Shown here one piece after another: positions 1-20,714 of a stretch of 64,000 nt of DNA (its first letter is position 1; every line of letters begins with the position of its first letter). Below the pieces are notes generated by a model. That model saw nothing but the letters and a program-made list of their open reading frames with translations. It was not told the DNA's origin and made no database searches. The DNA comes from Microbacterium soli. Lineage in GTDB: Bacteria; Actinomycetota; Actinomycetes; Actinomycetales; Microbacteriaceae. The position numbers were made by a program, and so were the translations under genes. The stretch is taken from contig NZ_BAABCP010000001.1 of NCBI RefSeq assembly GCF_039539005.1, positions 1,674,001-1,738,000 of the forward strand, given 5' to 3'.

Positions 1-1038
1 GCCGAGTGCGGTCCCTGTCATGTCGACGAGGGTGCGCTCGAGGAAATGCGGATCTGACACGATGTCACGGGAATCGTTCACCGGTGCGGCGACCACCTCA
101 AAATCCTGGAGAGTCGCCAAAGCCTGATCGCGAGTGCGCCCGTGCACCCACTCTCGCACGATGTCCTGGAGTGCATCGTTGTTGCGCATCCGGGCTTCGT
201 TCGTCGCATAGCGATCATCCGTCTTGAGATCCGGACGCCCCATCGCGTCGAACAGGCGCATGGCTATCGTCTGCGCCGAGGCCGCGATCGAAAGCCAGCT
301 GCCGTCCGCCGCCTCGTAGATTCCTCGGGGGGAGGCCGCGCCGGAGGCATTGCCGTGGCGCGTCATCACTGTTCCCGTCGCTGTGTAGTTCAGGAGCGCA
401 TCGCCGAGGATGAACATGAGCGGCTCGTACAGGGCGATGTCGATGACCTCACCGCGTCCGGTGACCTCGCGGCGATACAGTGCCATGGCCACTCCGTAGG
501 CGGCTGAGATCCCCGCGATCGAGTCGGCGAACCCGAAGGGAGGGGCCGTGGGAGGAGTCTCCGGCCAGCCGTTGAGATGCGCGAATCCGCTGGCGGTCTC
601 CGCGACGGTGCCGAACCCGGGTCGATCCCGGTATGGCCCGGTCTGGCCGAATCCGCTGACGCGGGCGAGGATGAGACCGGGATGTTCGCCCGCCAACTCG
701 TCGTAACCGAGGCCCCACTTCTCCAGACGGCCCGGGCGGAACGACTCGATGACGACGTCGGAGTCGGCGATGAGCCTGCGCACCAGATCGCGCCCCGCGG
801 CGGTGCGGAGGTCGATGCCGACGGAGCGCTTGCCGGCGTTGAGACGGACGAACCCGAGCGAGAGTCCGTCCTTCTGGGGCTGCCAATGCCGGGCCGTGTC
901 ACCGCGCAGGGGATCCTCGACCTTGACGACCTCCGCCCCGAAGTCGCGCAGCATGCGCCCCGCGGTGGGTGCGGCGTACATCGTGCCGAGTTCGAGGACG
1001 CGTACGCCGTCGAGAGGAGCGGAGGGGAGGTCTGGCAT
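1..1038 (-). CDS. CaiB/BaiF family CoA transferase (3' end beyond window)
   Basis: Family III CoA transferase that moves CoA between a donor acyl-CoA and a free acid. The reverse strand reads from the ATG at 1038 without a stop to base 1, 346 codons against about 390-400 for the family, so the C-terminus is missing. Visible family features are the N-terminal LDGVRVLELGTMYAAPTAGR, then DFGAEVVKVEDP and LNAGKRSVGIDL. The catalytic Asp of this family normally follows about 170 residues in, in the stretch reading EVIDIALYEPL. I chose the ATG at 1038 because GGAG lies just upstream; an in-frame ATG at 1050 has no such site. It is divergent from the dehydrogenase at 1111 across a 72-bp AT-rich gap. 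In this context it probably activates a dicarboxylic or branched acid intermediate of the island. Confidence 0.9.
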   Translation of the reverse strand, partial: MPDLPSAPLDGVRVLELGTMYAAPTAGRMLRDFGAEVVKVEDPLRGDTARHWQPQKDGLSLGFVRLNAGKRSVGIDLRTAAGRDLVRRLIADSDVVIESFRPGRLEKWGLGYDELAGEHPGLILARVSGFGQTGPYRDRPGFGTVAETASGFAHLNGWPETPPTAPPFGFADSIAGISAAYGVAMALYRREVTGRGEVIDIALYEPLMFILGDALLNYTATGTVMTRHGNASGAASPRGIYEAADGSWLSIAASAQTIAMRLFDAMGRPDLKTDDRYATNEARMRNNDALQDIVREWVHGRTRDQALATLQDFEVVAAPVNDSRDIVSDPHFLERTLVDMTGTALG

Positions 1039-1059
1039 TGTGTACTCCATCGTTCACCG

Positions 1060-1100
1060 TGGCCGAAGACAGATAATAATGATAGTAATGGATTAAATGC
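1060..1100. promoter_or_regulatory. AT-rich divergent promoter/operator region (site A)
   Basis: The gap between the divergent CoA transferase and dehydrogenase genes holds an AT-rich island at about 1073-1096 containing AATGATAGTAATGGATT. Its reverse complement begins AATCCAT and agrees at 15 of 23 positions with the perfect palindrome at 19368-19388, by eye. It is taken as a binding site for a regulator not encoded in the window, overlapping the promoters of both genes. Confidence 0.45.
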
Positions 1101-1110
1101 GAGGAGGCCA

Positions 1111-1869
1111 ATGATGCACAACGTCTTCGACCTGTCGGGCAGGACGTCCCTGGTGACCGGCGGAAGTCGTGGCCTGGGGCTGGCGATGGCCGAGGCCTTC
1201 GCCGAAGCCGGATCCGACGTGGTCATCGCCAGCCGGGACCGCACGGCATGCGAGGCCGCGGCGGACACGATCGCGGCGCGGACGGGTCGTCGTGTCGTCG
1301 GTCTCTCTGCGCACGTCGGGCACTGGGATGAGCTCTCCGATCTGGTCGACGCCGTGTACGAGAGGTTCGGCCGAGTCGATGTGCTGGTGAACAATGCGGG
1401 CATGTCGCCGCTGTATGACACATTGGGGAGTGTCACCGAGGCGCTCTTCGACAAGGTCGTCGACGTGAACCTCAAAGGGCCGTTCCGGCTCTCCGCACTC
1501 GTCGGCGAGCGGATGCTCGCAGACGGCCGGGGCGGGTCGATCGTCAACATCTCCAGCGCGGCGTCCCTCAGGCCGCGAAGCCATACTCTCCCATACGCCA
1601 TGGCCAAAGCGGGACTGAACGCCATGACCGTGGGGCTGGCGCATGCGCTCGGACCGAAGGTTCGCGTCAACGCGATCATCGCAGGGACCTTCCTCACGGA
1701 CGTGTCCAAGGCATGGGACATGGATGCCTTCGAGCATCGTGCGCAGACGTTCGCGCTGCAGCGGGGCGGTCGGCCGGACGAGATCGTCGGTGCCGCGCTC
1801 TTTCTCGCCGGCGACGCCTCCTCTTACGCGACGGGCTCGATGCTCACCGTGGACGGCGGGCAGCCATGA
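1111..1869 (+). CDS. Short-chain dehydrogenase/reductase (SDR)
   Basis: Classical SDR of 252 residues, the normal length, probably an NAD(P)-dependent alcohol dehydrogenase or 3-hydroxyacyl-CoA dehydrogenase. The nucleotide-binding TGGSRGLG motif lies near residues 16-23, NNAG follows in VDVLVNNAG, and the catalytic Ser-Tyr-Lys set appears as NISSAAS and YAMAKAG. The C-terminus ends in the usual SMLTVDGG. GAGGAGG stands five bases before the ATG at 1111; a second ATG follows at 1114. It overlaps the next gene by 4 bp (ATGA), so the two are co-transcribed and probably consecutive in hydration and oxidation of an acyl-CoA or alcohol. The open frame runs further upstream, but that part lies inside the opposite-strand CoA transferase. 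Confidence 0.93.
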   Translation: MMHNVFDLSGRTSLVTGGSRGLGLAMAEAFAEAGSDVVIASRDRTACEAAADTIAARTGRRVVGLSAHVGHWDELSDLVDAVYERFGRVDVLVNNAGMSPLYDTLGSVTEALFDKVVDVNLKGPFRLSALVGERMLADGRGGSIVNISSAASLRPRSHTLPYAMAKAGLNAMTVGLAHALGPKVRVNAIIAGTFLTDVSKAWDMDAFEHRAQTFALQRGGRPDEIVGAALFLAGDASSYATGSMLTVDGGQP

Positions 1870-2624
1870 CGGAGGTCGAGCTCTCTTACGAGGGCGATTC
1901 AGCTCGGCTCACGCTCAATCGTCCTGCACGCCTCAACGCGTTCGACCTCGCGCTGGCGGCGCAGCTCCTGTCGGCCGTCGAAGAGGTGTCGGCCTCGGAG
2001 TGCTCGAGCCTCGTCATCCAGTCCACCGGTCGTGCCTTCTGCGCAGGGGGAGATGTGCGTGCGATGTCGGACTCGGGATCACCGGATGAGTATCTGCGCA
2101 GACTGACCGATGATGTGCACGCCGCGATCACCGTGATCCGTGCGCTGCCGATGACGGTGATCGCGCGAGTGCAGGGCCCTGTGGCCGGCGGTGGACTGGG
2201 GCTCATGCTCGCCGCCGATGTCTCGATCGCCAGTGATCTGGCGACGTTCACAGCCGGATACGGCGCTCTCGGCCTCTCGCCGGACTGCGGAGTCTCCCTG
2301 CAGCTGCCGGCGGCGATCGGAGCGCAACGCGCTCGGTCCTTCCTGCTCGGCATGACACCCGTCGACGCGCAGACGGCCGGCGACTGGGGGCTGGTCTCCC
2401 GAGTCGTCGCACATGATGCGCTCGACACCGCTGTGGAGGAGGCCGTGGCCCGCGCGAGGCTGATCGGGGCGGCGGCGGCCGGGGCGACGAAGCGCCTGCT
2501 CGACCACACGCGCTGGGCCGATGGGCTGGAGCGAGAGGCCGAGCTCATCTCTCATCTGGCAGCGACGACAGCGCGGCATCGCATCGACCGATACGGCGCC
2601 CGCCGAGTGAGAAGCGGTCGCTGA
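1866..2624 (+). CDS. Enoyl-CoA hydratase/isomerase family protein
   Basis: Crotonase-fold protein of 252 residues acting on acyl-CoA thioesters. Features seen are the N-terminal LTLNRPARLNAFD, the first oxyanion-hole segment FCAGGDVRAM, and the second in GPVAGGGLGLMLAADV. The segment LGLSPDCGVSLQLP resembles PaaG/isomerase-like members, with Asp where hydratases often carry the second Glu, so isomerase or another crotonase chemistry is possible. The start ATG at 1866 overlaps the stop of the upstream dehydrogenase. The gene ends 39 bp from the convergent acyl-CoA dehydrogenase. Role in the island: beta-oxidation-like processing of a CoA ester; the substrate is unknown. Confidence 0.9.
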   Translation: MTEVELSYEGDSARLTLNRPARLNAFDLALAAQLLSAVEEVSASECSSLVIQSTGRAFCAGGDVRAMSDSGSPDEYLRRLTDDVHAAITVIRALPMTVIARVQGPVAGGGLGLMLAADVSIASDLATFTAGYGALGLSPDCGVSLQLPAAIGAQRARSFLLGMTPVDAQTAGDWGLVSRVVAHDALDTAVEEAVARARLIGAAAAGATKRLLDHTRWADGLEREAELISHLAATTARHRIDRYGARRVRSGR

Positions 2625-2663: not shown

Positions 2664-3836
2664 TCAGTAGGATCGGGGCAGTCCGAGCACCTTCTCGCCG
2701 AGGAACGCGAGGACCAGTTCATTGCTGATCGGGGCGATGCGCTCGACCCGGACCTCCCGCCAGTACCGTTCGACGTGGTACTCCTTCGTGTAACCGTAGC
2801 CGCCGTGGACCTGCATGGCGCGATCGGCGGACTCGAAGGCCCATTCGCTGGCCAGGTATTTCGCCTCGTTCGCCTCCTTCGCGCACGCGAGTCCCGCGTC
2901 GTAGAGGACGGCGGCTCTGCGGACGAGCAGTTCGACGGCATCGAGCTTGGCGAGCGAGTCCGCGAGCGGGAACTGCACGCCCTGATTCTGCCCGATCGGA
3001 CGGGAGAACACGACGCGCTGCTTCGCATACTCGACCGCTCTGCGCAGCGCGGCCCGTCCGATGCCGAGACAGAGGGCGGCGACGATGATCCGCTCGGCGT
3101 TCAACCCGCTGAGCAGGTAGGAGAAACCTCGACCCTCCTCCCCGATGCGGTCCTCTTCGGGTACGAACAGATCGTCGATGACGAGCTCATTGGTGGCGAT
3201 CGCATTCCGCCCGAGTTTCGGGATCGGGTTGATCGAGACATGCTCCCGGTCGACAGCGGTGAAGAAGAGCGTCATGCCGTCGGTGGCCTTCGCGCCGGCA
3301 TCGCGGGGAGCCGTGCGTGTGATCAGGAGCATGCGATCAGCTTCCAGCGCACGGGAGATGAACACTTTGCGTCCGTTGACGCGATACCCGCCCGGGACCC
3401 TCTGCGCGAAGGTCGTGATGGCTGTGGTCTCCGTGCCCGCATCGGGCTCGGTGATCGCGAAGCACACCTGCAGCTCGCCGGCGATCGCGGCAGGGAGATA
3501 CTGTCGTCGCTGCTCCTCGGAACCGTGCTTCAGGACGGGTTCCAGACCGAACAGCGCGACCTGGACCGTCGTGGCGGCGTTGAGACCGCCGCCGTTCCCC
3601 GCGACCTCCTGCATCAGAATCGACGCGGCCTGCACACCCGCGCCGCCGCCGCCGTACTCCTCAGGAGTGGTGATGCCCAGCCAGCCCTCGTCGGCCATGG
3701 CGCGATAGAACTCCCAGGGGAAGGACTGCGTCTCATCGGCGTTCGCCCAGTACTCGTCGGGGAACCTCTGACACAGGGCGCGCACGGCCTGGCGGATCTC
3801 GTTCTCGTCCTCCGCGGTGAGCTCGTCCATGAACAT
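2664..3836 (-). CDS. Acyl-CoA dehydrogenase
   Basis: FAD enzyme of 390 residues, full length for the family, that introduces a 2,3-double bond into an acyl-CoA. The FAD-binding middle region shows CFAITEPDAGTETTAITTFA. The C-terminal signature VHGGYGYTKEYHVERYWRE carries the likely catalytic base Glu352 (the Glu of KEYHVE), in the position used by medium-chain enzymes. The N-terminal part contains GWLGITTPEEYGGGG. The ATG at 3836 is preceded by GAGGAGA. It is transcribed divergently from the CoA-ester lyase/MaoC operon across a 117-bp gap with AT-rich site B. An acyl-CoA dehydrogenase next to CitE-like and MaoC genes also occurs in the mycobacterial Rv2498c-Rv2500c neighbourhood, which supports degradation of a methyl-branched acyl-CoA. 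Confidence 0.95.
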   Translation of the reverse strand: MFMDELTAEDENEIRQAVRALCQRFPDEYWANADETQSFPWEFYRAMADEGWLGITTPEEYGGGGAGVQAASILMQEVAGNGGGLNAATTVQVALFGLEPVLKHGSEEQRRQYLPAAIAGELQVCFAITEPDAGTETTAITTFAQRVPGGYRVNGRKVFISRALEADRMLLITRTAPRDAGAKATDGMTLFFTAVDREHVSINPIPKLGRNAIATNELVIDDLFVPEEDRIGEEGRGFSYLLSGLNAERIIVAALCLGIGRAALRRAVEYAKQRVVFSRPIGQNQGVQFPLADSLAKLDAVELLVRRAAVLYDAGLACAKEANEAKYLASEWAFESADRAMQVHGGYGYTKEYHVERYWREVRVERIAPISNELVLAFLGEKVLGLPRSY

Positions 3837-3953: not shown

Positions 3954-4844
3954 ATGCATCCGTACCGCTCCATGCTCTTCGTCCCGGGTCACCGGGCGTC
4001 GTGGGTCGACAAGGCCGTGGCGTCGGGGGCAGACGCCATCACCCTCGATCTCGAGGACTCCGTCCCACAGGACCTCAAACAGGACGCACGCCGCATCGTG
4101 CGGGAGTCGATCGAGCGCCTTCGCACCGAGAACGTGAAGATCGGCGTTCTCGTGCGAGTCAACGGGCTGGCGACGGGTCAGACGGGGTTCGATCTGGAAG
4201 CCGTCGTGGGCCCCGGCGTCGACGCGATCTTCGCTCCGAAGGTGGAGTCCGCCCTCGACGCCCAGAGGTTCGAGACGCTCATCGACTATTTCGAAGCACG
4301 CAACGGTGGAAAGGAGATCCGCCTGGTCATCCCCATGGAGACGGCCCGTGCCGTCGCGCGGTGCGAAGAGATCGCATCATCGACTCCGCGAGTCGGCGGG
4401 ATTCTCGGTTCGACGGCGGAGCACGCCGACATCGCGCGCGAGATCGGATTCGAATGGACTCCCGAGGGGTTGGAGACCCTGGCGCTGAGGGCCCGCGTGC
4501 AAGTGGCGGCCAGGGCCGCGGGCGTGCATCCCATGACGGGCCTGTGGGAACGGATCCATGACCTGTCTGGCTTGAGAGAGTTCGCCCTCCAGGGCCGGCG
4601 GCTCGGTTTCCTGGGTCAGATCGCGATCCACCCGAGTCACGTGCCGATCATCAATGAGGTGTACGGGCCGAGTCCGGAGAGGCGTCGCTTCTTCGAGGGG
4701 TTGATCCAGGCATACACGGAAGCGGCGGCGCGGGGTGAGGGAGCCGTCGTCTACGAGGGCAGCCACATCGACAAGGCACATCTGGACAAGGCCCGTGAAT
4801 GGCTCGCGCACGCCGACCTCGTCGAGGGTCTGAGGGATCACTGA
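3954..4844 (+). CDS. CitE-like HpcH/HpaI-family CoA-ester lyase
   Basis: Lyase of the CitE/malyl-CoA lyase family, 296 residues, predicted to split a beta-hydroxy-acyl-CoA such as citramalyl-, malyl- or beta-methylmalyl-CoA in a Mg-dependent retro-Claisen reaction. Family marks are the N-terminal PYRSMLFVPGHRASWVDKA, the acidic LDLEDSVP, the metal-binding Glu in LVIPMETARAV, and the C-terminal IHPSHVPIINEVYGPSP. GAGGAAGAG precedes the ATG at 3954; longer in-frame starts lie in the promoter region. The MaoC hydratase follows after 37 bp. The pairing resembles mycobacterial Rv2498c/Rv2499c and the itaconate-degradation genes Ccl/Ich. The exact substrate is inference. Confidence 0.9.
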   Translation: MHPYRSMLFVPGHRASWVDKAVASGADAITLDLEDSVPQDLKQDARRIVRESIERLRTENVKIGVLVRVNGLATGQTGFDLEAVVGPGVDAIFAPKVESALDAQRFETLIDYFEARNGGKEIRLVIPMETARAVARCEEIASSTPRVGGILGSTAEHADIAREIGFEWTPEGLETLALRARVQVAARAAGVHPMTGLWERIHDLSGLREFALQGRRLGFLGQIAIHPSHVPIINEVYGPSPERRRFFEGLIQAYTEAAARGEGAVVYEGSHIDKAHLDKAREWLAHADLVEGLRDH

Positions 4845-4881: not shown

Positions 4882-5343
4882 ATGAGAGGGCTGTATTTCG
4901 AGGAGATGGAGCCGGGGGCGATCGTCCGGCACGTGCTGACGCGCACCGTCACGGAGATGGACAACGTGCTGTTCACGTCGATCACCATGAACGTGGCACC
5001 GATCCACCTCGACGTCGAGTACGCGAAGACGCTCCCCTACGGTCGCCCCCTGGTCAACAGCCTCTTCACCATGGGACTCATCGGAGGCATGATCGTGCCG
5101 GAGCTGGTGTTCCGGACGTCGCTCGGGAATCTCGGCTACGAAGAGGTGAAGTTCCCCAACCCGGTGTTCGTCGGCGACACACTGCGTGCGGAGACGACGA
5201 TCCTCGACAAGCGACTGTCCCGGAGCGACTCGTCCCGAGGGATCGTGTGGTTCGAGCACCGTGGCCTCAATCAGCGGGATGAGCTCGTCATGACGTGCCG
5301 TCGAGCAGGGATGGCGATGCGCCGTCCCGCTGGGGAGGGCTGA
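4882..5343 (+). CDS. MaoC-family acyl-CoA hydratase (mesaconyl/itaconyl-CoA hydratase-like)
   Basis: Single hot-dog-domain (R)-hydratase of 153 residues. The hydratase signature reads MNVAPIHLDVEYAKTLPYGRP, with the catalytic His in APIHLD. The position of the usual catalytic Asp (GDxNPIH in MaoC/PhaJ) is Asn here; from memory, proteins of the mesaconyl-CoA hydratase-like branch often carry Asn at this position. The gene sits between a CitE-like lyase and an acyl-CoA synthetase, and a hydratase feeding the lyase would form its beta-hydroxyacyl-CoA substrate. The ATG at 4882 has GAGAGGGGACGGAGCG upstream. It is probably in one operon with its neighbours, with gaps of 37 and 34 bp. Confidence 0.87.
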   Translation: MRGLYFEEMEPGAIVRHVLTRTVTEMDNVLFTSITMNVAPIHLDVEYAKTLPYGRPLVNSLFTMGLIGGMIVPELVFRTSLGNLGYEEVKFPNPVFVGDTLRAETTILDKRLSRSDSSRGIVWFEHRGLNQRDELVMTCRRAGMAMRRPAGEG

Positions 5344-5377: not shown

Positions 5378-7480
5378 ATGAGTCTGCAGGAGACTGAACG
5401 CCCCTCGCTGGACCTCCGGTCGCTGCTCGCGCCTCGGAGTATCGCCGTGGTGGGCGCATCGGCGGATCAGGGCAGGCACAACGGGCGCCCCATCGCCAAC
5501 CTGCTTCGCACGGGATACGACGGACGGATCTACCCCGTCACCCCGCGGGAGGGCGACGTCCGCGGCCTTTCCTCCTTCCGCACGGTCCTGCAGGTGCCGG
5601 AACAGGTGGACCTGGCAATCGTCCTGGTCCGGGCGGACAGGGTGCTCGGAGTCCTCCGGGAGTGCGCGGAGGCCGGCGTGCGCAACGTCGTGGTCAATGC
5701 GTCCGGATTCGCGGAGGAGGGTGAGGAGGGGCGCCGCGCGCAGGAGGAGATCCGCAGCATCGCGCGACAGAGTGGGATGCGCGTGATCGGGCCGAACTGC
5801 ATCGGGGTGCTGTCGGTCACCGATGGCGTCCTGCCCGTGACGACCCTGAATGTGACGGTGGAGCAGACACCGGGCGATGTCGCGATCGTCAGCCAGTCGG
5901 GCGGGATGGCGGCGAACATCTTCAACAGGGCGCAGGCCGACGGGGTCGGGGTGCGCGCGGCGCTGAGCCTGGGCAACGAGGCGGACGTGGATGTCGCGGA
6001 TGCGGTCGCCGCACTCGCCGATGACGCAGCCACCGAGACGATCCTGATGTATGTGGAGCAGCTGCGCGACATCCCGCGGTTCCGCCGAGCCATGGCCCGC
6101 GTTCGCGCGGCGGGCAAGGCCGTCCTGTGCGTCAAAGCGGGCCGATCGGATGCGGGGATGCGCAGCGCGCAGAGCCACACCGGTGCGATGGCCGGAGCAT
6201 TCGCCGTGTTCCGGGATCTCGTCGAGGGGATGGGCGTACGCGTCCTGGACGGGCTGGACGAGATGATCGACACGGCGAGGATCCGTCAGCGGTTCGGCTC
6301 CGTCGCCGGGAGGCGCGTTCTCGTGGTCTCGCCCTCGGGCGGTGAGTGCGGGTATGTCGCCGATCTCGCTGAGGAGTCCGGGCTCATCCTCCCGGAACTC
6401 TCGGAGGGCCTCGGACAGCGACTCGGCGAGTTGATGAGGTTCGGAGCCCCGTCGAATCCACTCGATCTGACCGGCCAGGTCATCGGAGATGACGCGTTGC
6501 TGGACGGTGTCTTCCACGCGATCGCAGACGGACCGGAGTTCGATGCCGTCGTGGTCGCTCTGCCGACGTGGGGAGACTTCGACTCTCAGCGGCTCATGCC
6601 GCGCATCACCGCCGCGGTGCAGGCGCTCGAGATCCCTGCGGTCGTCACAGCCTGGTCCTCCCACGGGCTGACCGAGTGGCGCGACGGATATCTCCGAAGC
6701 AGTCCGCTGCTGGCCTTCGACAGCCCCGGTCGCGCCGTCCGCGCCCTCGCATTCGCTGCGTCGCTCGACGGGGTGGGCGCGGCGTCCGAGTCGGCGGCAC
6801 GGGTCCTCTCACCAGTCCATTGGGATGCTGAAGCGGTGCGGGACGAGGCGTCCGCGAAGAGGTGGCTGCACGGGCTGGGAGTTCCCGTGAGCGAGGAACT
6901 GGTCCTGCCGCTCGGCGAGAGCGAGGCGCCGCCGTTCGGCTACCCGGTCGTGGTCAAGGGGGTTGCACCCGGTGTCGCGCACAAGTCGGAACTGGGACTC
7001 GTCGAAGCCGACGTGCGCGACGAGCGTGACTTCAAACGGGCGGTCGCACGAATCCGTCAGTCGGCGACTGTGCACGCGGTGGACCTCGCCGGGATGCTCG
7101 TCGCGCGCAGGTATGCGGGTGTGGAGCTCATCGCCGGGATCACCAGGGACCGTGCTTTCGGGCCGGTGATGATGGTCGGTGCGGGCGGGGTGCTCGCGGA
7201 ACTGCTCGACGACACGGCGTTCCTCGCATGTCCGGCTTCTCCGGCGCAGGTGCGATCGACGCTTGAGCGCCTGCGGATCACGCGGCTGCTCAGCGGATTC
7301 CGGGGCGGCCGAGCGGATGTGGATGCCCTTGTGGCACTGCTCGTGCGCGTATCGGAGGTCGCCGCGGGCTGCCCGGAGCTCGGCGAGCTCGATCTCAATC
7401 CCATCATCGTCGGCGAGCCCGGCGAGGGCGCCGTGGTCGTCGATGCTCTGGTGCGGTACCGACGAGATGACCGGGAATGA
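5378..7480 (+). CDS. ADP-forming acyl-CoA synthetase (acetate-CoA ligase family)
   Basis: NDP-forming acid-CoA ligase with fused alpha and beta parts, 700 residues. It makes acyl-CoA from acid, ATP and CoA through a phosphohistidine intermediate. The CoA-binding domain begins LLAPRSIAVVGASADQGRHN; the ligase domain carries QSHTGAMAGAF with the likely phosphorylated His. A C-terminal ATP-grasp domain shows YPVVVKGVAPGVAHKSELG and ends ELDLNPIIVGEPGEG. It lies downstream of the MaoC gene and 16 bp before the flavin oxidoreductase. It gives the island a second CoA-activating enzyme beside the CaiB transferase, likely for the ring-opened or imported acid. The start at 5378 follows GGACGCGTCCG, a weak ribosome site. 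Confidence 0.9.
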   Translation: MSLQETERPSLDLRSLLAPRSIAVVGASADQGRHNGRPIANLLRTGYDGRIYPVTPREGDVRGLSSFRTVLQVPEQVDLAIVLVRADRVLGVLRECAEAGVRNVVVNASGFAEEGEEGRRAQEEIRSIARQSGMRVIGPNCIGVLSVTDGVLPVTTLNVTVEQTPGDVAIVSQSGGMAANIFNRAQADGVGVRAALSLGNEADVDVADAVAALADDAATETILMYVEQLRDIPRFRRAMARVRAAGKAVLCVKAGRSDAGMRSAQSHTGAMAGAFAVFRDLVEGMGVRVLDGLDEMIDTARIRQRFGSVAGRRVLVVSPSGGECGYVADLAEESGLILPELSEGLGQRLGELMRFGAPSNPLDLTGQVIGDDALLDGVFHAIADGPEFDAVVVALPTWGDFDSQRLMPRITAAVQALEIPAVVTAWSSHGLTEWRDGYLRSSPLLAFDSPGRAVRALAFAASLDGVGAASESAARVLSPVHWDAEAVRDEASAKRWLHGLGVPVSEELVLPLGESEAPPFGYPVVVKGVAPGVAHKSELGLVEADVRDERDFKRAVARIRQSATVHAVDLAGMLVARRYAGVELIAGITRDRAFGPVMMVGAGGVLAELLDDTAFLACPASPAQVRSTLERLRITRLLSGFRGGRADVDALVALLVRVSEVAAGCPELGELDLNPIIVGEPGEGAVVVDALVRYRRDDRE

Positions 7481-8525: not shown

Positions 8526-8535
8526 CCGGAAGGTC

Positions 8536-8572
8536 TTGACTAATTTGTAATCATCATTGGTATGATATCTGT
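8536..8572 (+). promoter_or_regulatory. Promoter and operator of the liv operon (site C)
   Basis: TTGACT at 8536-8541 and TATGAT at 8561-8566 form a plausible -35/-10 pair with a long 19-bp spacer. The inverted repeat ATCAT-N7-ATGAT (8550-8566) covers the -10 box, as expected for repression. GTATGATATC (8560-8569) is repeated exactly at site B. Confidence 0.5.
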
Positions 8573-8623
8573 ACCCGACGGTTCGAAGTCGACCGTCACA
8601 GCTCACGCGTCGAAGAGGACGCG

Positions 8624-13625: not shown

Positions 13626-14891
13626 ATGAACACCGGCGTTCGCGAACCGATGGTCGATTTCGATCACAACTCACCCGAGCACAGTGCGGACACCGTCGCC
13701 AGCTATAGGGCGCTGCGCGACAAGGCTCCTGTCGCGTGGACAGAGGCCTGGGGCGGATACTGGGTCCTCAGCGGATACGACCCTGTGTTCGACGCAGCGC
13801 GCGACGATGATCTGTTCAGCTCGGCGCGGCATGAAGACCTGGGCGTGACGGGGCAGGCGATCACGCTGCCGCAGAAGCCGATGCACATCCATCTTCCGAT
13901 CGAACTCGATCCGCCGGAGTCTCAGAAGTACCGCTCGATCATGAACAAGCTGATCACTCCGAGGCGGGTGTCCACGCTCATGCCGATGATCGAGAAGTAC
14001 GTGGACATGTTCATCGATGAGCTCATCGAGTCCGGTGAGGCGGACTTCTCCACGCTCACCGGTGTGCCGGCGATCGTGACGATCACGTGGCTCGGCGCCC
14101 CATTGAAGGACTGGCGCAGGCATGCGATGTTCCATCGGGCTCTGCTCGCGGAGCCGGTCGGCAGCGAGGGATATCGACACGCCATCGAGGAAGAACTCCC
14201 CTATCTCACCGCACAGGTGAAGAGGACCATCGCAGAGCGGCGGAGGGAGCCGAGGGAGGACGGCATCAGCTTCGTCGTCAATCAGAAGATCGACGGTCGC
14301 GAGATGACCGACGAAGAGGCCTTCGGCATGATCGAGCTGCTCATCTCCGGCGGGGTCGGAACGACCGCGTCGCTCACCGGTCAGGCACTGGTCTGGCTCT
14401 CGGAGCATCCCGACCAGAGGGAGCTGCTGCGGAAGAACCCCGAGATGATGCAGACGGCGCTGGAGGAGTTCCTGCGCGTGTTCAGTCCCACTCAGGCTCT
14501 CTCACGGACAGTCATGGCCGACACGGAGTTCCACGGTGTGAAGATGAGACGAGGCGATCGTGCTCTGCTCGCTTGGGCGTCCGCCAACCGTGACGGTGCG
14601 GATGCGGGCGACAGCCCCGATGACGTCGACATCACGCGCTCTCCGAATCGTCACCTCGCGTTCGGCGTGGGCAGTCACCGTTGCGCGGGCTCGCACCTGG
14701 CTCGTCCGATGGCCCGTACGATCCTCTCCAAGATCATCGAGCGGATGCCGGACTACACGGTGGACCTCGAGCGCACGGTGCGCTTCAGCGCGCAGGGCGT
14801 GAACACCGGGTACCTGAGTGTGCCGGCCAGATTCACACCGGGCGAAAAGGTCTATCCGAATGAGTCGCTCAGCGAGCTCGAGCGGGACTGA
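13626..14891 (+). CDS. Cytochrome P450 monooxygenase
   Basis: Soluble class I bacterial P450 of 421 residues, expected to hydroxylate the substrate with two ferredoxin-delivered electrons. The ExxR pair is in EEFLRVF at about residues 280-283. The haem-binding loop HLAFGVGSHRCAG places the ligand Cys at about residue 353. The I-helix reads LISGGVGTTAS (residues 239-249). The acid that normally precedes the catalytic Thr (Asp251 in P450cam) is Gly245 here, while Thr246 is kept. I chose ATG 13626, with GGAG eight bases upstream, over an upstream GTG at 13599. It is followed directly by the HtaA-like, ferredoxin and reductase genes in one operon. Placement in a CYP family cannot be made from sequence alone. 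Confidence 0.95.
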   Translation: MNTGVREPMVDFDHNSPEHSADTVASYRALRDKAPVAWTEAWGGYWVLSGYDPVFDAARDDDLFSSARHEDLGVTGQAITLPQKPMHIHLPIELDPPESQKYRSIMNKLITPRRVSTLMPMIEKYVDMFIDELIESGEADFSTLTGVPAIVTITWLGAPLKDWRRHAMFHRALLAEPVGSEGYRHAIEEELPYLTAQVKRTIAERRREPREDGISFVVNQKIDGREMTDEEAFGMIELLISGGVGTTASLTGQALVWLSEHPDQRELLRKNPEMMQTALEEFLRVFSPTQALSRTVMADTEFHGVKMRRGDRALLAWASANRDGADAGDSPDDVDITRSPNRHLAFGVGSHRCAGSHLARPMARTILSKIIERMPDYTVDLERTVRFSAQGVNTGYLSVPARFTPGEKVYPNESLSELERD

Positions 14892-14903
14892 GAGAACGCT
14901 GCG

Positions 14904-15392
14904 ATGGCCGAGGCCGCCGACGCGCCGGGCCTCCGGTGGGCCGTCAAGGCCAGCTTTCTGTCCTATGTGGCGAGTCTCTCCGACGGGGCGATGTCCGTGA
15001 CTTCAGGGGCTCTGGAGGTCCCCGAGGGCTTCCTCTTCCCCGTGCGGGACCACCGGCGATTCGATGCGCGCACGGGCATCGGCACACTCTGCTTCGCCGG
15101 GGACGTGCGCTTCCGCGCCTATCGGGGGATGCTCCAATTGAGGATCGCCGACCCGCAGCTTCATGCGGATGAGGACGGAGCAGTGCTCACCGTCGAGGAC
15201 GCGGCCGCCGAGCGCGTCGTCATCGCAGATCTCGACACCCCTCGTCGCGCTCGCGGGGGTGGTCTCGAGGTGCCGGCCAGTCTGGCTCCGGGAGCGGAGC
15301 ACTACTTCAACAATGCCTATCCGGAGGGAACGGTGCTCGACCCACTCGTGATCCGCGGCATCTGGGATCCTCCGGCTCGGAAGACGGATTGA
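14904..15392 (+). CDS. Cytosolic single-domain HtaA-like protein
   Basis: Protein of 162 residues resembling the HtaA domain, which binds haem in corynebacterial cell-surface proteins. Matching stretches are LRWAVKASFLSYV near the N-terminus (with the Tyr that binds haem in HtaA at about residue 21), then TGIGTLCFAGDVRFRAYRG and LQLRIADPQLHADEDG. Near the C-terminus is AYPEGTVLDPLVI, like the closing strand of that domain. The His next in importance in HtaA appears to be Tyr (FRAYRGML). There is no signal peptide, lipobox or membrane anchor, so it should be cytoplasmic, unlike known HtaA proteins. It lies 12 bp after the P450 and 16 bp before the ferredoxin. A role in haem handling for the P450 or in binding a hydrophobic substrate is speculation. 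Confidence 0.65.
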   Translation: MAEAADAPGLRWAVKASFLSYVASLSDGAMSVTSGALEVPEGFLFPVRDHRRFDARTGIGTLCFAGDVRFRAYRGMLQLRIADPQLHADEDGAVLTVEDAAAERVVIADLDTPRRARGGGLEVPASLAPGAEHYFNNAYPEGTVLDPLVIRGIWDPPARKTD

Positions 15393-15408
15393 CGAAAGGA
15401 GAGTCACC

Positions 15409-15732
15409 ATGTCAGCACAGGTGACCTACGTCTCAGCCTCGGGCGAGGAGATGACGTTCGAGGGTGAAGCGGGCGATTCGGTGATGGCGGTCGCGGTGAG
15501 GAACGGCCTGTCGACGATCGTCGCGGAGTGCGGAGGGTCGATGTCCTGCTCGACCTGTCACGTCTTCGTCGATGAGAAGGACCTGGCGCTCTTCGATCCG
15601 ATCTCCGAGGTGGAGGATGAGATGCTCGATACGACTGCGGTGGACCGCGAGCCGAACTCGCGCCTGTCATGTCAACTCGTGTTGCGCGAGGACTGCGCGG
15701 TTCGCGTGACCACTCCTGAAACGCAGATGTGA
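15409..15732 (+). CDS. 2Fe-2S ferredoxin (adrenodoxin/putidaredoxin type)
   Basis: Electron carrier of 107 residues between the reductase and the P450. Cluster ligands are Cys41, Cys47 and Cys50 in ECGGSMSCSTCHVF, and Cys88 in RLSCQL. The spacing (C-X5-C-X2-C-X37-C) is that of vertebrate-type ferredoxins serving P450s. Acidic residues around EVEDEML would face the partner. AAAGGAGAG precedes the ATG. Its TGA overlaps the ATG of the reductase gene by one base, so the two are translated together. Confidence 0.95.
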   Translation: MSAQVTYVSASGEEMTFEGEAGDSVMAVAVRNGLSTIVAECGGSMSCSTCHVFVDEKDLALFDPISEVEDEMLDTTAVDREPNSRLSCQLVLREDCAVRVTTPETQM

Positions 15733-16979
15733 TGGGCGCCGGGACAGTCGTCGTCGGCGCGTCACAGGCGGGGGTCCAGCTCGCTGTGTCTCTGCGGGAC
15801 GGCGGATACGAGGAGCCGATCACGCTGATCGACGCTGCGCCGCACGAGCCCTATCAGCGGCCGCCGCTGTCGAAGGACTATCTGTCCGGCGAGGTGCAGG
15901 TCCACGGTCTGCGCTTCCGTCAGGAGACCTATTACCGTGCGCAGCAGATCGACCTCGTGCTCGGTTCGGCGGTGACGTCGGTGCGACGGCAGGGCAGCGG
16001 AGGTGTCGCCGTGGGATCGGATGGCGTCGAGCGCTCGTACGATCGACTCGTCATCGCCACGGGGGCCGAGCCCCGTCGACTCCGGCTCCCCGGTGCCGAC
16101 CTGGACGGGATCCTGGTGCTGCGGGACGCAGAGGATGCCGGTCGGGTGAAGGAGGCGCTGGACAGCGCGCGGGATCTCGTCGTGATCGGCGGTGGTTTCA
16201 TCGGTCTCGAGGTGGCGTCCGCGGGAAGGAAGCGGGGTCTGAACGTCACGGTGCTGGAGGCGGCGCCGCGCATCATCGGTCGTGCGGTGGGAGAGCTGAC
16301 GAGTTCGTGGTTCCTGCAGGCGCACCGCGCGCGCGGCACGCGGGTCGAGCTCGGGGTTCAGCTTGCGGGATTCCACGGCAATGACGGAAAGGTCGAGTCG
16401 GTGGAGCTCGCGGACGGAACGCATGTACCGGCGGACATCGTCGTCGTGGGGATCGGAGTCATCCCGCGCACCGGATTGGCAGAGCAGCTCGGCCTGGCTG
16501 TCGACAACGGGATCGTGGTCGACCAGCACATGCTGGCCTCGGACGGTCGGACGATCGCCATCGGCGACGTCGCGAATGTGCCGAATCCGTTCGCGCGTAC
16601 GGCCGACGCGATGAGGCGCATGCGGTTCGAAGGTGTGAACACCGCGATCGAGCAGGCGCGCAGCGCGGCATCGACGATTCTCGGATCCCCGCAGCCGTAT
16701 TGCGCCGTTCCGTGGTTCTGGTCGAATCAAGGGGATCTCCGACTCCAGATGGTCGGTCTCAACGCCGGGTATGACGATGCCATCGTTCGAGGGGACCCGG
16801 AATCCGACAAGTTCACCGTGCTCTATTACCGCGGAGAGATGCTCCTCGGCGCGGACTGCATCAACTCCCCGGTGGATTTCATGGCGGCGAAGATCACGTT
16901 GAACAGCGGGAGGAACATCCGTCCTGCCTCGGCGACTGCCGACGGACCGCTCAAGGCGCAGATCGTGGAGCTGGTCTGA
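15732..16979 (+). CDS. FAD-dependent ferredoxin reductase (putidaredoxin-reductase type)
   Basis: NADH-dependent flavoprotein of 415 residues that reduces the ferredoxin. The FAD-binding motif GTVVVGASQAGVQLA lies at the N-terminus. PYQRPPLSKDYL is the hallmark of this reductase group. The NADH-binding motif VVIGGGFIGLEVASAG lies near residue 153, and TIAIGDVANVPNP is the second flavin-contact motif. ATG 15732 overlaps the ferredoxin stop; a GTG at 15729 is an alternative. With the P450 and 2Fe-2S ferredoxin it forms a complete three-component class I P450 system like the CamABC set for camphor. Confidence 0.94.
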   Translation: MGAGTVVVGASQAGVQLAVSLRDGGYEEPITLIDAAPHEPYQRPPLSKDYLSGEVQVHGLRFRQETYYRAQQIDLVLGSAVTSVRRQGSGGVAVGSDGVERSYDRLVIATGAEPRRLRLPGADLDGILVLRDAEDAGRVKEALDSARDLVVIGGGFIGLEVASAGRKRGLNVTVLEAAPRIIGRAVGELTSSWFLQAHRARGTRVELGVQLAGFHGNDGKVESVELADGTHVPADIVVVGIGVIPRTGLAEQLGLAVDNGIVVDQHMLASDGRTIAIGDVANVPNPFARTADAMRRMRFEGVNTAIEQARSAASTILGSPQPYCAVPWFWSNQGDLRLQMVGLNAGYDDAIVRGDPESDKFTVLYYRGEMLLGADCINSPVDFMAAKITLNSGRNIRPASATADGPLKAQIVELV

Positions 16980-17043: not shown

Positions 17044-18561
17044 CTAGCGGATCGGCCACTGGATGTGCTTCACCTGGAAGAACTCCTGGAAGCCGTCCTC
17101 ACCCATCTCCCTGCCGTATCCGGAGAGCTTGAAACCGCCCCACGGGCCGTCCGGGCGCATGTAGCCCCCGCCGTTGATCGACACGGATCCGGCTCGTATT
17201 CGCGATGCCAGCTCCAGCGCCTCGGCGGGATCCCCGTACACCGCGGCGTGCAATCCGTACGGCGAATCGTGGGCGATGCCGATCGCATCCTCCACACTGT
17301 CGTACGGGATGAGGACGCCGACCGGGCCGAACAGCTCCTCGCGCGATATCTCCCAGGTGTTATCGACTCCTCCCACGACGGTCGGATTGTAGAAGTACCC
17401 GCTCAGCCCGTCGGTGTAGCCGCCTCCTGCGATGATCTCGGCTCCCTGATCGACAGCGCGGTCGACGAACCCCGCGACGAACTCGCGCTGCTCTTCTCGG
17501 ATGAGCGGGCCGAGGTCGTTGGACTCCTCCCACGGCACCCCCACGGAGAGTCCGGAGACGAAGCGCTGGACGCTCGCGGCGAAGTCATCGTACTGCGAAC
17601 GGGGAACGAGCATGCGAGTGGTGGAGCCGCACCCCTGTCCGGAGTTGCGTGCGAAGCGCATGATGGAGGGCTGAACCACGGAGTCGAAGTCTGTGATGCT
17701 CGGAAGGAGGATGTTCGCCGATTTCCCGCCGAGCTCGAGGATGGTCTTCTTGACGGTGTCGGCGGCGGCCCGTTGGATGGCCTTGCCGACTTTCAGGGAT
17801 CCGGTGAACATCACCATGTCCACGGCGGCGTGTGTCGTGATGACCTCTCCGACGTCGCCGAGGCCCGATACGAAGTTCACCACGCCGGCTGGGACGCCGG
17901 CCATCTCCGTGAGCTTCATCAGAGCCCGAGTCGACAGCGGCGTCCGCTCGGATGACTTGAACACGAGGGTGCAGCCGGCCGCGAGTCCGGGGCCCAGCTT
18001 CCACACCACCGAGTTGATCGGGAAGTTGTACCCGGTGATCCCCGCGACCACCCCGGCGGGAACCCGCTGCAGCACGGAACTCGACGGAGGTGTGTGCAGA
18101 TCCGGCGCGAGGGGCTGCTCATAGCCGCCCATGGGTCCCTTGAGAGCCATTCCGGCCGCCCAGCGCACGTTCTCGATGGGCATGGCCACCTGCATCGCAC
18201 GCGCGAGTGCGATCGGGGTGCCCACCTCGGCGATGATGATCTCGACGAGCGCATCGAAGTGCGATTCGAGCAGGTCGGCGAGCCGCTGGAGGACCGCTGA
18301 CCTTTCGGCAGGGGAGGTCCGCCCCCAGGGCCCCTCATCGAAGGCTCGCCGGGCGGCGATGACCGCCCGCTCCGCCTGACTCGGGGTGGCATGGGGTGCC
18401 GTGTGCAGGACTTCGCCGGTCGACGGGTTCCAGATGGTGTTCGTGTGCTCGGACTGACCGTCCTCCCACTCTCCACCGATCCAGTTCATGGGCCCGGAGA
18501 TCAGTTCGCGGGCCGCGGAGCTCAGCCTGTCGAGGGATGTCAGGGCGGGAATGGTGCTCAT
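17044..18561 (-). CDS. Aldehyde dehydrogenase (NAD(P)-dependent)
   Basis: ALDH superfamily enzyme of 505 residues, normal length, converting an aldehyde to the acid. Motifs seen are ITGYNFPINSVVWKLGPGLAAGC, the catalytic Glu in ILELGGKSANILL, and the catalytic Cys in FARNSGQGCGSTTRML. ARIRAGSVSINGG stands near the C-terminus. The ATG at 18561 overlaps the stop of the preceding dehydrogenase gene by 4 bp, so alcohol-to-aldehyde-to-acid oxidation by this pair is likely. The resulting acid would go to the CoA synthetase or the CoA transferase. Its operon promoter carries the perfect palindrome at 19368-19388. Confidence 0.95.
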   Translation of the reverse strand: MSTIPALTSLDRLSSAARELISGPMNWIGGEWEDGQSEHTNTIWNPSTGEVLHTAPHATPSQAERAVIAARRAFDEGPWGRTSPAERSAVLQRLADLLESHFDALVEIIIAEVGTPIALARAMQVAMPIENVRWAAGMALKGPMGGYEQPLAPDLHTPPSSSVLQRVPAGVVAGITGYNFPINSVVWKLGPGLAAGCTLVFKSSERTPLSTRALMKLTEMAGVPAGVVNFVSGLGDVGEVITTHAAVDMVMFTGSLKVGKAIQRAAADTVKKTILELGGKSANILLPSITDFDSVVQPSIMRFARNSGQGCGSTTRMLVPRSQYDDFAASVQRFVSGLSVGVPWEESNDLGPLIREEQREFVAGFVDRAVDQGAEIIAGGGYTDGLSGYFYNPTVVGGVDNTWEISREELFGPVGVLIPYDSVEDAIGIAHDSPYGLHAAVYGDPAEALELASRIRAGSVSINGGGYMRPDGPWGGFKLSGYGREMGEDGFQEFFQVKHIQWPIR

Positions 18562-19325
18562 GCCAGGAGCCCCCCGTCCAGGGGAAGAGCCGTGCCGGTG
18601 ATCCAGCTGGCGTCGTCACTGGCCAGGAAGGCGGCCGCAGCGGCGACTTCATCCGGAGATCCGGCACGGCCGAGGGGGACGTTCTGCGCGAAGGCGCTCT
18701 TGGCCTCCTCGATGTCGGCACCGGGCTCGCGCCCGAAGAACTGAGACAGCATGGGGGTCTCGATCATCGCGGGGAGCAGCGCATTCGAGCGGATCCCGTC
18801 CGGCCCCAGTCGCTTCGCAACGGCCTTCATGAAGATGGTGATGCCGCCCTTCGCCAGAGAATACAGCGGGCTGAAGGGTGATCCGACCATTCCCGAGGTG
18901 GAGGAGGTGAAGATGATGGATGCATGGGGCGCGGCCTTGCGCAGCAGCGGGACCGCGTACTGTGTGGCGAAGAAGGCGCTGCGCAGGTTGATGTCCATCG
19001 TCTTCGCGTACTGCTCGGGCGAGACCTCCAGCCCGGCGGCACCGGGGACGCCCGCGTGGTTGTAGAGCACGTGGAGGAGGCCGTGGTCCTGCTCGATCTG
19101 GTCGAAGACGTCTTTCAGAGCGTTCAGATCGCTCACGTCGAGCTGGCGGGCCGTCGCCGATCCACCTGAGGCCGAGATCTCGGCGACGACTTTCTCCGCG
19201 GCCGCGCCATCGAGGTCGCTGACGATGACGTGGGCACCCTCCTGGGCGAAACGCAGTGCGCCTGCTCGGCCCATGCCTGAGCCGGCTGCGGTTATCAGGG
19301 CGATGCGCCCCTCGAGCCTCTTCAT
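18558..19325 (-). CDS. Short-chain dehydrogenase/reductase (SDR)
   Basis: Classical SDR of 255 residues. The nucleotide-binding motif AAGSGMGRAGA is near residues 13-23. The NNAG-like motif reads YNHAG, with His in place of the second Asn. The catalytic set appears as TSSTSGM and YSLAKGG. The C-terminus ends WITGTALPLDGG. It is the first gene of a two-gene operon with the aldehyde dehydrogenase (ATGA overlap) and probably oxidises an alcohol made by the P450 or formed after ring opening. AGGAGACATCA precedes the ATG. Confidence 0.92.
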   Translation of the reverse strand: MKRLEGRIALITAAGSGMGRAGALRFAQEGAHVIVSDLDGAAAEKVVAEISASGGSATARQLDVSDLNALKDVFDQIEQDHGLLHVLYNHAGVPGAAGLEVSPEQYAKTMDINLRSAFFATQYAVPLLRKAAPHASIIFTSSTSGMVGSPFSPLYSLAKGGITIFMKAVAKRLGPDGIRSNALLPAMIETPMLSQFFGREPGADIEEAKSAFAQNVPLGRAGSPDEVAAAAAFLASDDASWITGTALPLDGGLLA

Positions 19326-19367: not shown

Positions 19368-19388
19368 CCATGATTATAGAAATCATGG
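19368..19388. promoter_or_regulatory. Perfect palindromic operator (CCATGATT-N5-AATCATGG)
   Basis: Eight-base arms CCATGATT (19368-19375) and AATCATGG (19381-19388) are separated by ATAGA. It lies 42 bp upstream of the SDR-aldehyde dehydrogenase operon. It is the best-conserved member of the AT-rich sites A, B, C, D and E and probably the binding site of a dimeric repressor that is not encoded in the window. Confidence 0.65.
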
Positions 19389-19413
19389 TATTTGCCCCAT
19401 GGGGGGAGCGCAA

Positions 19414-19444
19414 GGGCTCGCCAGGGCGGGCGGATGCCGAGCCC
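19414..19444 (-). terminator. Hairpin downstream of the MFS gene
   Basis: GGGCTCG (19414-19420) and CGAGCCC (19438-19444) form a 7-bp stem just after the MFS permease stop. It lacks a T-run and is a weak candidate. Confidence 0.35.
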
Positions 19445-19469
19445 GGTCGCAGAGAGAACGGTGCGGGCT

Positions 19470-20714
19470 TCACTGGGGGGAGTCCCAGGGGCCGTGCCGT
19501 CGCTCCCACTGCTCCTCCAGGGTTTCCTGTCTGCCCAGTGCGATACCTGCTGGAATGGCGAGTACGGAAGCGGCGGCGAGGATCCAGATCGTCGAGTCCC
19601 AATGGCCCGTCATGTCGTGCAGGATGCCGGCGATCAGGGGAAACACGGCGGCGCTCCCATAGCCGAAGCTCTGTACGAAGCTGCTCAGTGCGACTGAGGT
19701 CGGGTGAGCGCGAGTGCGGATGCCGAAGAGGGCCATGGTGGTGGAGAACAGGAGCGGTGGGCCGAGGCCCAGTAGCGCCGTCCAGAGCCAAGGTGCAGCG
19801 CTCGGCGCGAGAAGCAGGCCCAGGCATCCCAGCGCACTCGGTGCGCAGGAGCCGACGAAGAGCACCCGTTCCGCCCGCATTCTCGCCACGAGAAGCGGGA
19901 CCACCAGGGAGCAGGGCAGGCTGACGAGACCGAAGAGGGCCAGGAGTGCACCGGCGGCGTCAGGCGTGACCCCTGCGCGGTCGATCAGGATCGTCGGCAG
20001 CCAGCTGAAGCCCGTATAGGCGATGGCTGATGAGATGGTGAACCCGAGGGTGATGGCCCAGGTGACGCGCAGGCGCCCCAGCCTGCGCAGGGGCCGCGAG
20101 CTGACGACGTCTGCGATCGCGTCGGCATTCTCGCCCCGCTGTGCGATGAGCTGCCATACCCAGGGGATCAGCGCGAGCAGGGCGAACACGGCCCACACTC
20201 CGATTGAGAATCGCCAGCCGGCAGCGTCAGCGAGCGGAACCGCGACCCCCGGCGGCAGGAAGGTCGAGATCGACAGCATCGTGGCGTACATCGTCGTCAC
20301 TGTGCCGATATGCCGGGGGAAGTACCGTTTGGCCAGTGCAGGAGTCAGGATGTTCCCCGTGCCGAGCGCGGCGAAGATCAACACGGTGGTGGCGAGCAGA
20401 GTCGGCGCGTCGGGGGCGCACGCGCGCAGGGTCAGTCCGAGCGTCGTCACGCCGAGGACGGCGACCGTCATCCGTTCGAGTCCGAATCGCCGCGTCCAGG
20501 CGGGGGTCATGATCCCGAATGCCGCGTAGCACACCATGGGGCTCGCCCCGATGACACCGATGACCGTCGCGGGCACGGTGAGATCCCGCTGGATGAGGTG
20601 GAGCAGGGGGGAGAGGGAGGCGACGGCTGTGCGCAGCGAGAAGGCGAACAGCGTGATGCCGCTCAAGAGGAATGCGCTGCGGAACACTGCGCGGCGGTGG
20701 GTGGAGGGCATCAT
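19470..20714 (-). CDS. MFS transporter, CynX/NimT-like
   Basis: Major facilitator permease of 414 residues with twelve hydrophobic segments. The first segments read LFAFSLRTAVASLSPLL and the cytoplasmic loop PAWTRRFGLERM, like CynX/NimT-type permeases. ATGs occur at 20714 and 20711, with AGGAG about eleven bases upstream of the first. It is transcribed towards the SDR/aldehyde dehydrogenase pair but separated by 144 bp with a separate operator. Its own upstream region carries AT-rich site D, so it belongs to the catabolic island. It may take up or expel the starting compound or an intermediate, alongside the Liv importer. Confidence 0.88.
   Translation of the reverse strand: MMPSTHRRAVFRSAFLLSGITLFAFSLRTAVASLSPLLHLIQRDLTVPATVIGVIGASPMVCYAAFGIMTPAWTRRFGLERMTVAVLGVTTLGLTLRACAPDAPTLLATTVLIFAALGTGNILTPALAKRYFPRHIGTVTTMYATMLSISTFLPPGVAVPLADAAGWRFSIGVWAVFALLALIPWVWQLIAQRGENADAIADVVSSRPLRRLGRLRVTWAITLGFTISSAIAYTGFSWLPTILIDRAGVTPDAAGALLALFGLVSLPCSLVVPLLVARMRAERVLFVGSCAPSALGCLGLLLAPSAAPWLWTALLGLGPPLLFSTTMALFGIRTRAHPTSVALSSFVQSFGYGSAAVFPLIAGILHDMTGHWDSTIWILAAASVLAIPAGIALGRQETLEEQWERRHGPWDSPQ

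Follow-up and report, generated by a model that had tools for sequence, protein, structure and literature searches.

A recurring gene block around the CYP222-type cytochrome P450 of Microbacterium soli and the catabolic pathway it may encode

Do the genes that surround the cytochrome P450 of Microbacterium soli make up one catabolic pathway, or are they unrelated operons that happen to be neighbors? The stretch analyzed here (the window) is 64,000 nucleotides of contig NZ_BAABCP010000001.1, positions 1,674,001 to 1,738,000, from a genome of 3.12 Mb (G000) in which a genome search found only this one P450. A first-pass annotation had described window positions 1 to 20714 as a complete and unpublished island with its own LivKHMGF importer. 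The genes that it listed are all present there: the P450, two ferredoxins, a ferredoxin reductase, a luciferase-like (LLM) oxidoreductase, three dehydrogenases, CoA enzymes, the importer, and a permease of the major facilitator superfamily (MFS). Its interpretation of these genes as one catabolic unit leading from the P450 to CoA chemistry is retained; the uniqueness and completeness that it attributed to the island are not, and Baeyer-Villiger chemistry is unproven. We found that core genes of the block are co-inherited and clustered in unrelated actinobacterial families. That the block as a whole is one co-inherited pathway built on the P450, with the chemistry proposed below, is in our judgment about an even proposition.

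P450s that share >40% identity are by convention assigned to the same family. The window P450 (positions 13626 to 14891, plus strand) shares 58% identity, across 411 residues, with the P450 of locus L008, which is CYP222A1 of Thermobifida fusca, and by this identity limit it is a predicted member of the CYP222 family. The reductase encoded at L008 matches Protein Data Bank entry 6tuk over 393 of 393 residues (880 bits), the entry under which FdR9 was deposited, and the FdR9 gene adjoins those of CYP222A1 and the [3Fe-4S] ferredoxin Fdx8 (PMC7397466). The passages of that paper seen by us give the T. fusca CYP222A1-Fdx8-FdR9 system as Tfu_1274/1275/1273, call it putative, and name no substrate for CYP222A1. 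The open-licence literature searched in PubMed Central (PMC) names none either; within it, PMC7397466 is the only paper on CYP222 (another match concerns CYP2220), and no publication on the gene set as a whole was found, as the first-pass annotation had supposed. The window resembles the T. fusca system in its P450 and in the small [3Fe-4S]-type ferredoxin and reductase beside it. In contrast, the window reductase (15729 to 16979, plus strand, assigned by homology) is only 34% identical to that of L008, and the window adds a [2Fe-2S] ferredoxin (15409 to 15732, plus strand; PF00111) and an HtaA protein. An identity with PipA/MorA, as described in the part of PMC9477822 seen by us, was set aside because of the 58% identity to CYP222A1, without a direct alignment. 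Among the best 60 of 418 matches to solved structures, the nearest is a reconstructed CYP125 (192 bits), followed by P450cin, CYP130, CYP142, P450cam, and P450terp, and biosynthetic P450s such as PksS score similarly.

The I-helix of the window P450 reads SGGVGTT (the GGVGTT codons are at 14349 to 14366) and lacks the conserved acid. Counting distinct sequences only, the acid position in 67 P450s of ≥48% identity is occupied by Gly (65), Ala (1), or Ser (1) and by Asp or Glu in none, while all 31 P450 stretches of <48% identity have Asp or Glu there. Judged from these alignments, loss of the acid is a mark of the CYP222-type clade. We used the same 48% limit for neighborhoods: the best 80 of 104 relatives in a scan of genome contigs represent 76 distinct loci, which are 60 CYP222-type loci and 16 control loci with more distant P450s (L004 and L080 are apparently from one genome, G367/G208). 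The small ferredoxin (70 aa, single cluster, [3Fe-4S] type by motif; 13257 to 13469, minus strand; PF13370/PF13459) is divergent from the P450, and a divergent small ferredoxin lies ≤600 bp from the P450 in 50 of the 60 CYP222-type loci.

The strongest evidence that these genes belong together comes from their distribution among genomes. In a sample of 394 genomes from the class, including the window's own, the P450 (E ≤ 1e-110, with 50 to 59% identity in the other genomes) is present in 8. The CitE-type lyase is found in 11 of these genomes at E ≤ 1e-80 and is ≥56% identical in exactly the 8 that have the P450 (49 to 51% in the other three); the MaoC hydratase is found in 47 genomes at E ≤ 1e-40 and is ≥60% identical in exactly the same 8 (≤57% in the rest). 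The 56% and 60% limits were set from the observed gap. The chance of a 7/7 overlap among 393 genomes is about one in 2.7e14, for thresholds picked after the gap had been seen. In 6 of the 7 genomes other than the window's own, CitE and the P450 are on one contig, 3 to 33 kb apart; the exception is G478, in which the P450 is at a contig edge and CitE is on a separate contig. The first-pass annotation had named scattered copies of these genes in relatives without the P450 as the result that would count against it. Of 366 genomes in the genus, 2 have the P450 and 5 have CitE at E ≤ 1e-40, and CitE of ≥70% identity occurs only in the same 2 that have the P450, the remaining three being 40 to 45% identical.

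The block is also larger than the window portion of it. Thirty genes with low GC content at third codon positions (GC3) begin ~9.5 kb to the left of the window start and end with the MFS gene. In these genes GC3 averages 0.82 (range, 0.78 to 0.87), compared with 0.92 (range, 0.80 to 0.97) in 30 flanking genes with checked reading frames (Mann-Whitney test, 6e-10), and this difference makes the block look acquired. Like the co-inheritance, it speaks for a horizontally inherited catabolic pathway, a reading that we hold at about even odds. Nine genes upstream of the window have the same GC3 class and belong to the conserved set: an AMP-ligase, crotonase2, crotonase3, SDR3 (a short-chain dehydrogenase), a thiolase, two acyl-CoA dehydrogenases (ACAD2 and ACAD3), an amidohydrolase_2 protein, and a GntR/FCD (FadR-type) regulator. 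The island of the first-pass annotation was thus not complete: besides missing these nine genes, it has its CoA-transferase cut by the window edge, and the HtaA gene had been overlooked.

In Gulosibacter chungangensis, 23 of the 30 block genes are present at 46 to 85% identity within 37 kb (C1:525265-561787). Taken together with the co-occurrence in eight genomes, this argues for one co-inherited pathway. The 80 kb examined there showed no LivKHMGF, no [2Fe-2S] ferredoxin, and no MFS gene. At least three of LivHMGF (≥45% identity) lie within 10 kb in only 10 of the 60 CYP222-type loci; the importer seen by the first-pass annotation is therefore real here but is an optional part of the pathway. 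When six islands were mapped over 40 to 60 kb, the run CaiB-ALDH-MaoC-CitE-ACAD1-AMP-ligase-LLM (ALDH, aldehyde dehydrogenase) was intact in three (G447, G628, and G474) and partial in G536, and thiolase-SDR3-crotonase3 was present in 5 of the 6. The gene set thus recurs, reshuffled, in other actinobacterial genera, and its order in M. soli is not the special one that had been supposed. The ADP-forming synthetase and the window's form of the LLM were seen only in Microbacterium and Gulosibacter loci. The 16 control loci with more distant P450s have each island gene in 0 or 1 of 16, apart from the small ferredoxin (4/16).

Several observations weigh against a single pathway with the proposed chemistry. 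Neighbor counts were made within ±10 kb at a general limit of 45% identity, with lower identity limits for the ferredoxin, LivK, reductase, LLM, ALDH, and SDR2. By these counts many CYP222-type loci carry only partial sets (FadR in 22/60, crotonase2 in 26/60, CitE in 15/60 and in 13 of the 41 with full flanks, CaiB in 1/60), in part because flanks are short and contigs end. Among the mapped stretches, that of G628 is without the thiolase, SDR3, crotonase3, the amidohydrolase, and the Liv permeases and ATPases; that of G536 is without the AMP-ligase and LLM; and that of G447 is without ACAD3, the amidohydrolase, SDR1, and a close ACAD2. SDR1 is merely 33 to 35% identical in G536 and G728. In other genera, the ALDH of the CitE run shares only 43% identity with the window ALDH, which instead pairs with SDR2, as also in G728 and L047, so that an ALDH role after cleavage is weakly based here. 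CitE and MaoC score far under the cut-offs of the Rip models. Finally, CYP222-type loci of Rhodococcus and Geodermatophilus carry different neighbors, which suggests that the P450 clade may serve more than one pathway. One such locus, L031 of Rhodococcus aetherivorans, has a flavin adenine dinucleotide protein that, by eye, resembles a ketosteroid dehydrogenase (its cluster occurs in 9 loci), together with SDRs and a second P450 at 53%; the clade may serve a different substrate there.

If the block does encode one pathway, it would run as follows. LivKHMGF or the MFS protein would import the substrate, and the P450, supplied by the ferredoxin reductase and a ferredoxin, would hydroxylate an unactivated carbon. 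SDR2 and the adjacent ALDH would oxidize the alcohol to an acid, which the AMP-ligase or the ADP-forming synthetase could convert to a CoA thioester. ACAD1 would then desaturate, MaoC hydrate, and the CitE-type lyase cleave. An ALDH and the CaiB-type transferase may re-activate the cleaved half, a step proposed because CaiB, ALDH, MaoC, CitE, and ACAD1 form one run in other genera. ACAD2, ACAD3, the crotonases, SDR3, and the thiolase would complete beta-oxidation under control of the FadR-type regulator. We infer the order of the steps, what an ALDH and the CoA-transferase do once CitE has acted, and the class of the substrate. By resemblance of the enzyme families, the likeliest substrate is a hydrophobic compound of terpenoid type that is alicyclic or methyl-branched; the routes for abscisic acid, limonene, cineole, menthol, and steroids were also weighed and are neither supported nor excluded.

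The CoA module bears most directly on how such a pathway might end. ACAD1 (2664 to 3836, minus strand) adjoins the CitE/HpcH-type lyase (3954 to 4844, plus strand; PF03328) and the short MaoC hydratase (4882 to 5343, plus strand). In the lyase D32, E34, D35, R68, E129, and D159 are invariant in 19 of 19 aligned sequences, and we take these acidic and Arg positions to be functional. An ending of citramalyl type, in which ACAD1, MaoC, and CitE turn a substituted succinyl-CoA into pyruvate or glyoxylate plus an acyl-CoA while the ALDH and CoA-transferase act elsewhere, is consistent with these invariant residues, with the pairing of the window ALDH with SDR2 rather than CitE, with the occurrence of beta-methylmalyl-CoA dehydratase among the solved MaoC relatives, and with the nearest curated models, which are RipB/Ich for the hydratase and citE (TIGR01588) followed by RipC/Ccl for the lyase. 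However, the scores are far below the family cut-offs (129/340 bits for MaoC against RipB/Ich and 126/375 bits for CitE against RipC/Ccl, with a higher but still sub-cut-off score against citE), and this ending does not explain why an ALDH and the CoA-transferase share that gene run in three other islands. We consider it possible but somewhat doubtful. Membership in the itaconate Rip pathway was rejected on the same missed cut-offs; a MaoC hydratase adjoins a CitE-type lyase in both, but the window pair is embedded with an acyl-CoA dehydrogenase and a P450.

A membership of crotonase2 in the BadI or MenB family was also rejected. Encoded upstream of the window, this protein comes closest to BadI (164 bits, with a cut-off of 468) and MenB, and it has Pro143 at the position of the MenB Asp that follows V-G-S-x, an Asp that is presumably catalytic. 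The Pro is invariant in 13 sequences and present in 29 of 29 aligned rows. With this residue and the sub-cut-off BadI score, ring hydrolysis is only a hint.

A second alternative depends on the LLM protein (7497 to 8525, plus strand; PF00296). In the camphor and cineole systems (CYP101 and CYP176), a class I P450 and dehydrogenases feed further catabolism, and the window, by analogy, may likewise pair its P450 with dehydrogenases ahead of further catabolism. A camphor-like route would take the P450 product through an SDR to a cyclic ketone and then through LLM Baeyer-Villiger oxygenation, an amidohydrolase lactonase, and CoA steps. It draws support from P450cin and P450cam among the best solved matches of the P450, from the amidohydrolase_2 gene in the block, and from conservation of the LLM at 73 to 74% in Gulosibacter and Microbacterium CPCC 204701. 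The draft genome of the latter has no CofD match and a CofG match of only 18.7 bits, under the cut-off, which favors flavin over F420 there. On the other hand, its CofH match reaches 275 bits (also under the cut-off), and CofD is present in the window genome and in Gulosibacter, although neither has a CofG or CofH match. At E ≤ 0.001 the LLM has 40 matches among solved sequences, many of them F420 enzymes and none of them named diketocamphane monooxygenase, and its best NCBIfam model, under the cut-off, is an F420 subfamily. LLMs at the locus in other genera are just 32 to 33% identical, and the window P450 is distant from CYP101 and CYP176 (~150 and 173 bits) and lacks the I-helix acid. Based on these comparisons, the LLM may be either a flavin oxygenase or an F420 enzyme (its AlphaFold model is poor, with a predicted local distance difference test score [pLDDT] of 53), and we regard the camphor-like route as unlikely. 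CofD without CofG/CofH in the window genome and Gulosibacter may reflect salvage of the deazaflavin Fo. CofD of the window genome lies at C1:1344585, and a gene that looks CofE-like by eye, at about C1:1653773-1654621, has several LLM genes adjacent.

Degradation of a steroid or sterol side chain, with the CYP222-type P450 standing in for CYP125, is less probable still. The reconstructed CYP125 is indeed the top solved match of the P450, and the combination of ACAD, MaoC, lyase, and ALDH follows a logic like that of aldolytic side-chain removal. Yet no ring-degradation genes were recognized among the 30 block genes, and the crotonases, thiolase, and ligase score under the cut-offs of the steroid models. 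Last, a chance neighborhood of unrelated catabolic operons, for which one could cite the varying gene order between genera and the absence of several genes within ±10 kb in many loci, is close to refuted by the co-occurrence of P450, CitE, and MaoC in the same 8 genomes, their same-contig linkage, and the 23 shared Gulosibacter genes.

The P450 and the [2Fe-2S] ferredoxin are separated by a gene for a single-domain HtaA protein of 162 aa (14904 to 15392, plus strand), which matches PF04213 with 75 bits (cut-off, 24) and an E value of 1e-20. Its AlphaFold model has a pLDDT of 85.5, and the 16 best Foldseek matches are all corynebacterial HtaA, HtaB, or ChtA domains (6jsc, 6jsa, 8smu, and 9o0k at the top). 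By the Pfam match and the modeled fold, it is a predicted domain of heme-binding type. Tyr21, which aligns with what we take to be the heme-ligand position, is kept in 16 of 16 aligned HtaA proteins; 14 of the 16 have His at the position of His434 in 6jsa, a residue mutated in 6jsc, but the window protein has Tyr there. HtaA proteins of heme uptake are secreted or surface anchored. The window protein starts MAEAADAPGLRW and has no evident signal peptide, as read by eye without a signal-peptide program, and it would thus appear to be neither. It shares the fold of the corynebacterial heme-uptake domains HtaA, HtaB, and ChtA, and the putative ligand Tyr is kept in its family, but it is only ~160 aa long, has the domain near its start, and is located in an oxygenase operon. 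A genome search found no second HtaA domain in the window genome.

An HtaA gene follows the P450 in all 4 other loci of the Micrococcales branch (L003 to L006). The HtaA matches not picked via the P450 include 6 of 9 in genomes with a CYP222 island plus eight on plasmids (the other three of the 9, with open frames of 412, 412, and 823 aa, are not among them). Of those included, 11 are single-domain proteins with a readable neighborhood. A P450 is in the same operon or divergent in 5 of these 11 (L103, L104, L107, L108, and L137). These five P450s are ≤31% identical to the window P450, and those of L103, L108, and L137 are 38 to 79% identical to each other. In 2 of the 11 (L131 and L135), a Rieske oxygenase and reductase lie directly 5' of HtaA, with a P450 ~3 kb on. 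Like the window protein, the HtaA proteins of these seven loci show no evident signal peptide. L132 has a P450-like stretch ~3.3 kb from HtaA, and L130, L133, and L134 have none in the stretch available. Outside the 11, L105 lacks an adjacent P450, and P450s are found ~5 kb off in L106 and ~4 kb off in the unannotated L136. By comparison, a sampled survey of the class gave 20 further HtaA matches, at ~13 places of 10 genomes and all in frames of ≥486 aa, and these have no P450 within ≤1.5 kb, a weak contrast, since the P450s of L104, L107, and L137 are ~1.5 to 1.6 kb off and would be beyond such stretches. A profile search with the 16 HtaA proteins returned only 16 proteins at E ≤ 1e-10; either the single-domain family is small or such a search reaches it poorly. 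One tentative idea, which we think rather unlikely to be right as it stands, is that single-domain cytosolic HtaA proteins are a so far unrecognized class of oxygenase partners. In this idea a heme-uptake domain, recruited into the cell, would help to load P450s, protect them, or keep them in service, and it might also remove peroxide or act as an oxygen sensor for oxygenase systems in general; the window CYP222-type P450, with its acid-less I-helix, would be one client. The Rieske-linked genes speak against a role confined to loading P450s with heme. The portions of two HtaA papers seen by us (PMC10060970 and PMC8027190) concern heme transport or uptake.

The remaining genes of the window part of the block can be described briefly. 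The names CaiB, LivH, LivM, LivG, and LivF come from the translations and from mapped homologues rather than from family searches of their own. The class III (CaiB-type) CoA-transferase (-170 to 1050, minus strand) has homologues of 63 to 72% in 7 of 7 other mapped islands. It is followed by SDR1 (1111 to 1869, plus strand; 75% in Gulosibacter) and a crotonase of the enoyl-CoA hydratase/isomerase family (1866 to 2624, plus strand), which is 46% identical in Gulosibacter and reaches ≥45% in none of the 60 loci. The ADP-forming acyl-CoA synthetase (700 aa; 5378 to 7480, plus strand) and the [2Fe-2S] ferredoxin reach that identity in 2 (L003 and L004) and 3 (L004, L005, and L006) of the 60 loci, respectively. 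The importer consists, all on the plus strand, of the LivK-type binding protein (8648 to 9838, by homology), the LivH permease (9848 to 10732; 53 to 66% homologues in 5 of 6 mapped islands), the LivM permease (10729 to 11679), and the LivG (11676 to 12440) and LivF (12421 to 13131) ATPases. On the minus strand are the ALDH (17044 to 18561; 80% in Gulosibacter), SDR2 (18558 to 19325; 83%), whose gene overlaps that of the ALDH, and the MFS permease (19470 to 20714; CynX/NimT subfamily, under the cut-off). No MFS homologue of ≥45% was found in the 60 loci, so membership of this last gene in the block rests on its GC3 and position. A perfect inverted repeat with arms of 8, CCATGATTATAGAAATCATGG, at 19368 to 19388, 5' of SDR2, is a candidate operator. 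A common operator for the FadR-type regulator was not established; AT-rich pieces occur at other sites, without statistics. Also encoded at the Gulosibacter locus L003 are a protein of old-yellow-enzyme type, a second CoA-transferase of class III, and a MaoC with two domains (7539-9572, 14084-15205, and 15181-16143, all minus strand). From 21019 to 64000 the window resembles sugar ABC transport and pentose catabolism, as judged from translations read by eye.

If the proposed pathway is correct, an orphan family of P450s for which one reductase, FdR9, is solved would gain a defined pathway (~26 to 41 kb in the mapped islands) and some 20 candidate enzymes, and its substrate could be sought directly by experiment in actinobacteria that can be cultured. 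The I-helix without the acid, seen in all 67 CYP222-type P450s examined, is a natural system for a clean test of how oxygen is activated when the conserved Asp or Glu is absent. The HtaA link, if it holds, would suggest a bacterial helper protein for P450s and other oxygenases, which could be useful in P450 biotechnology.

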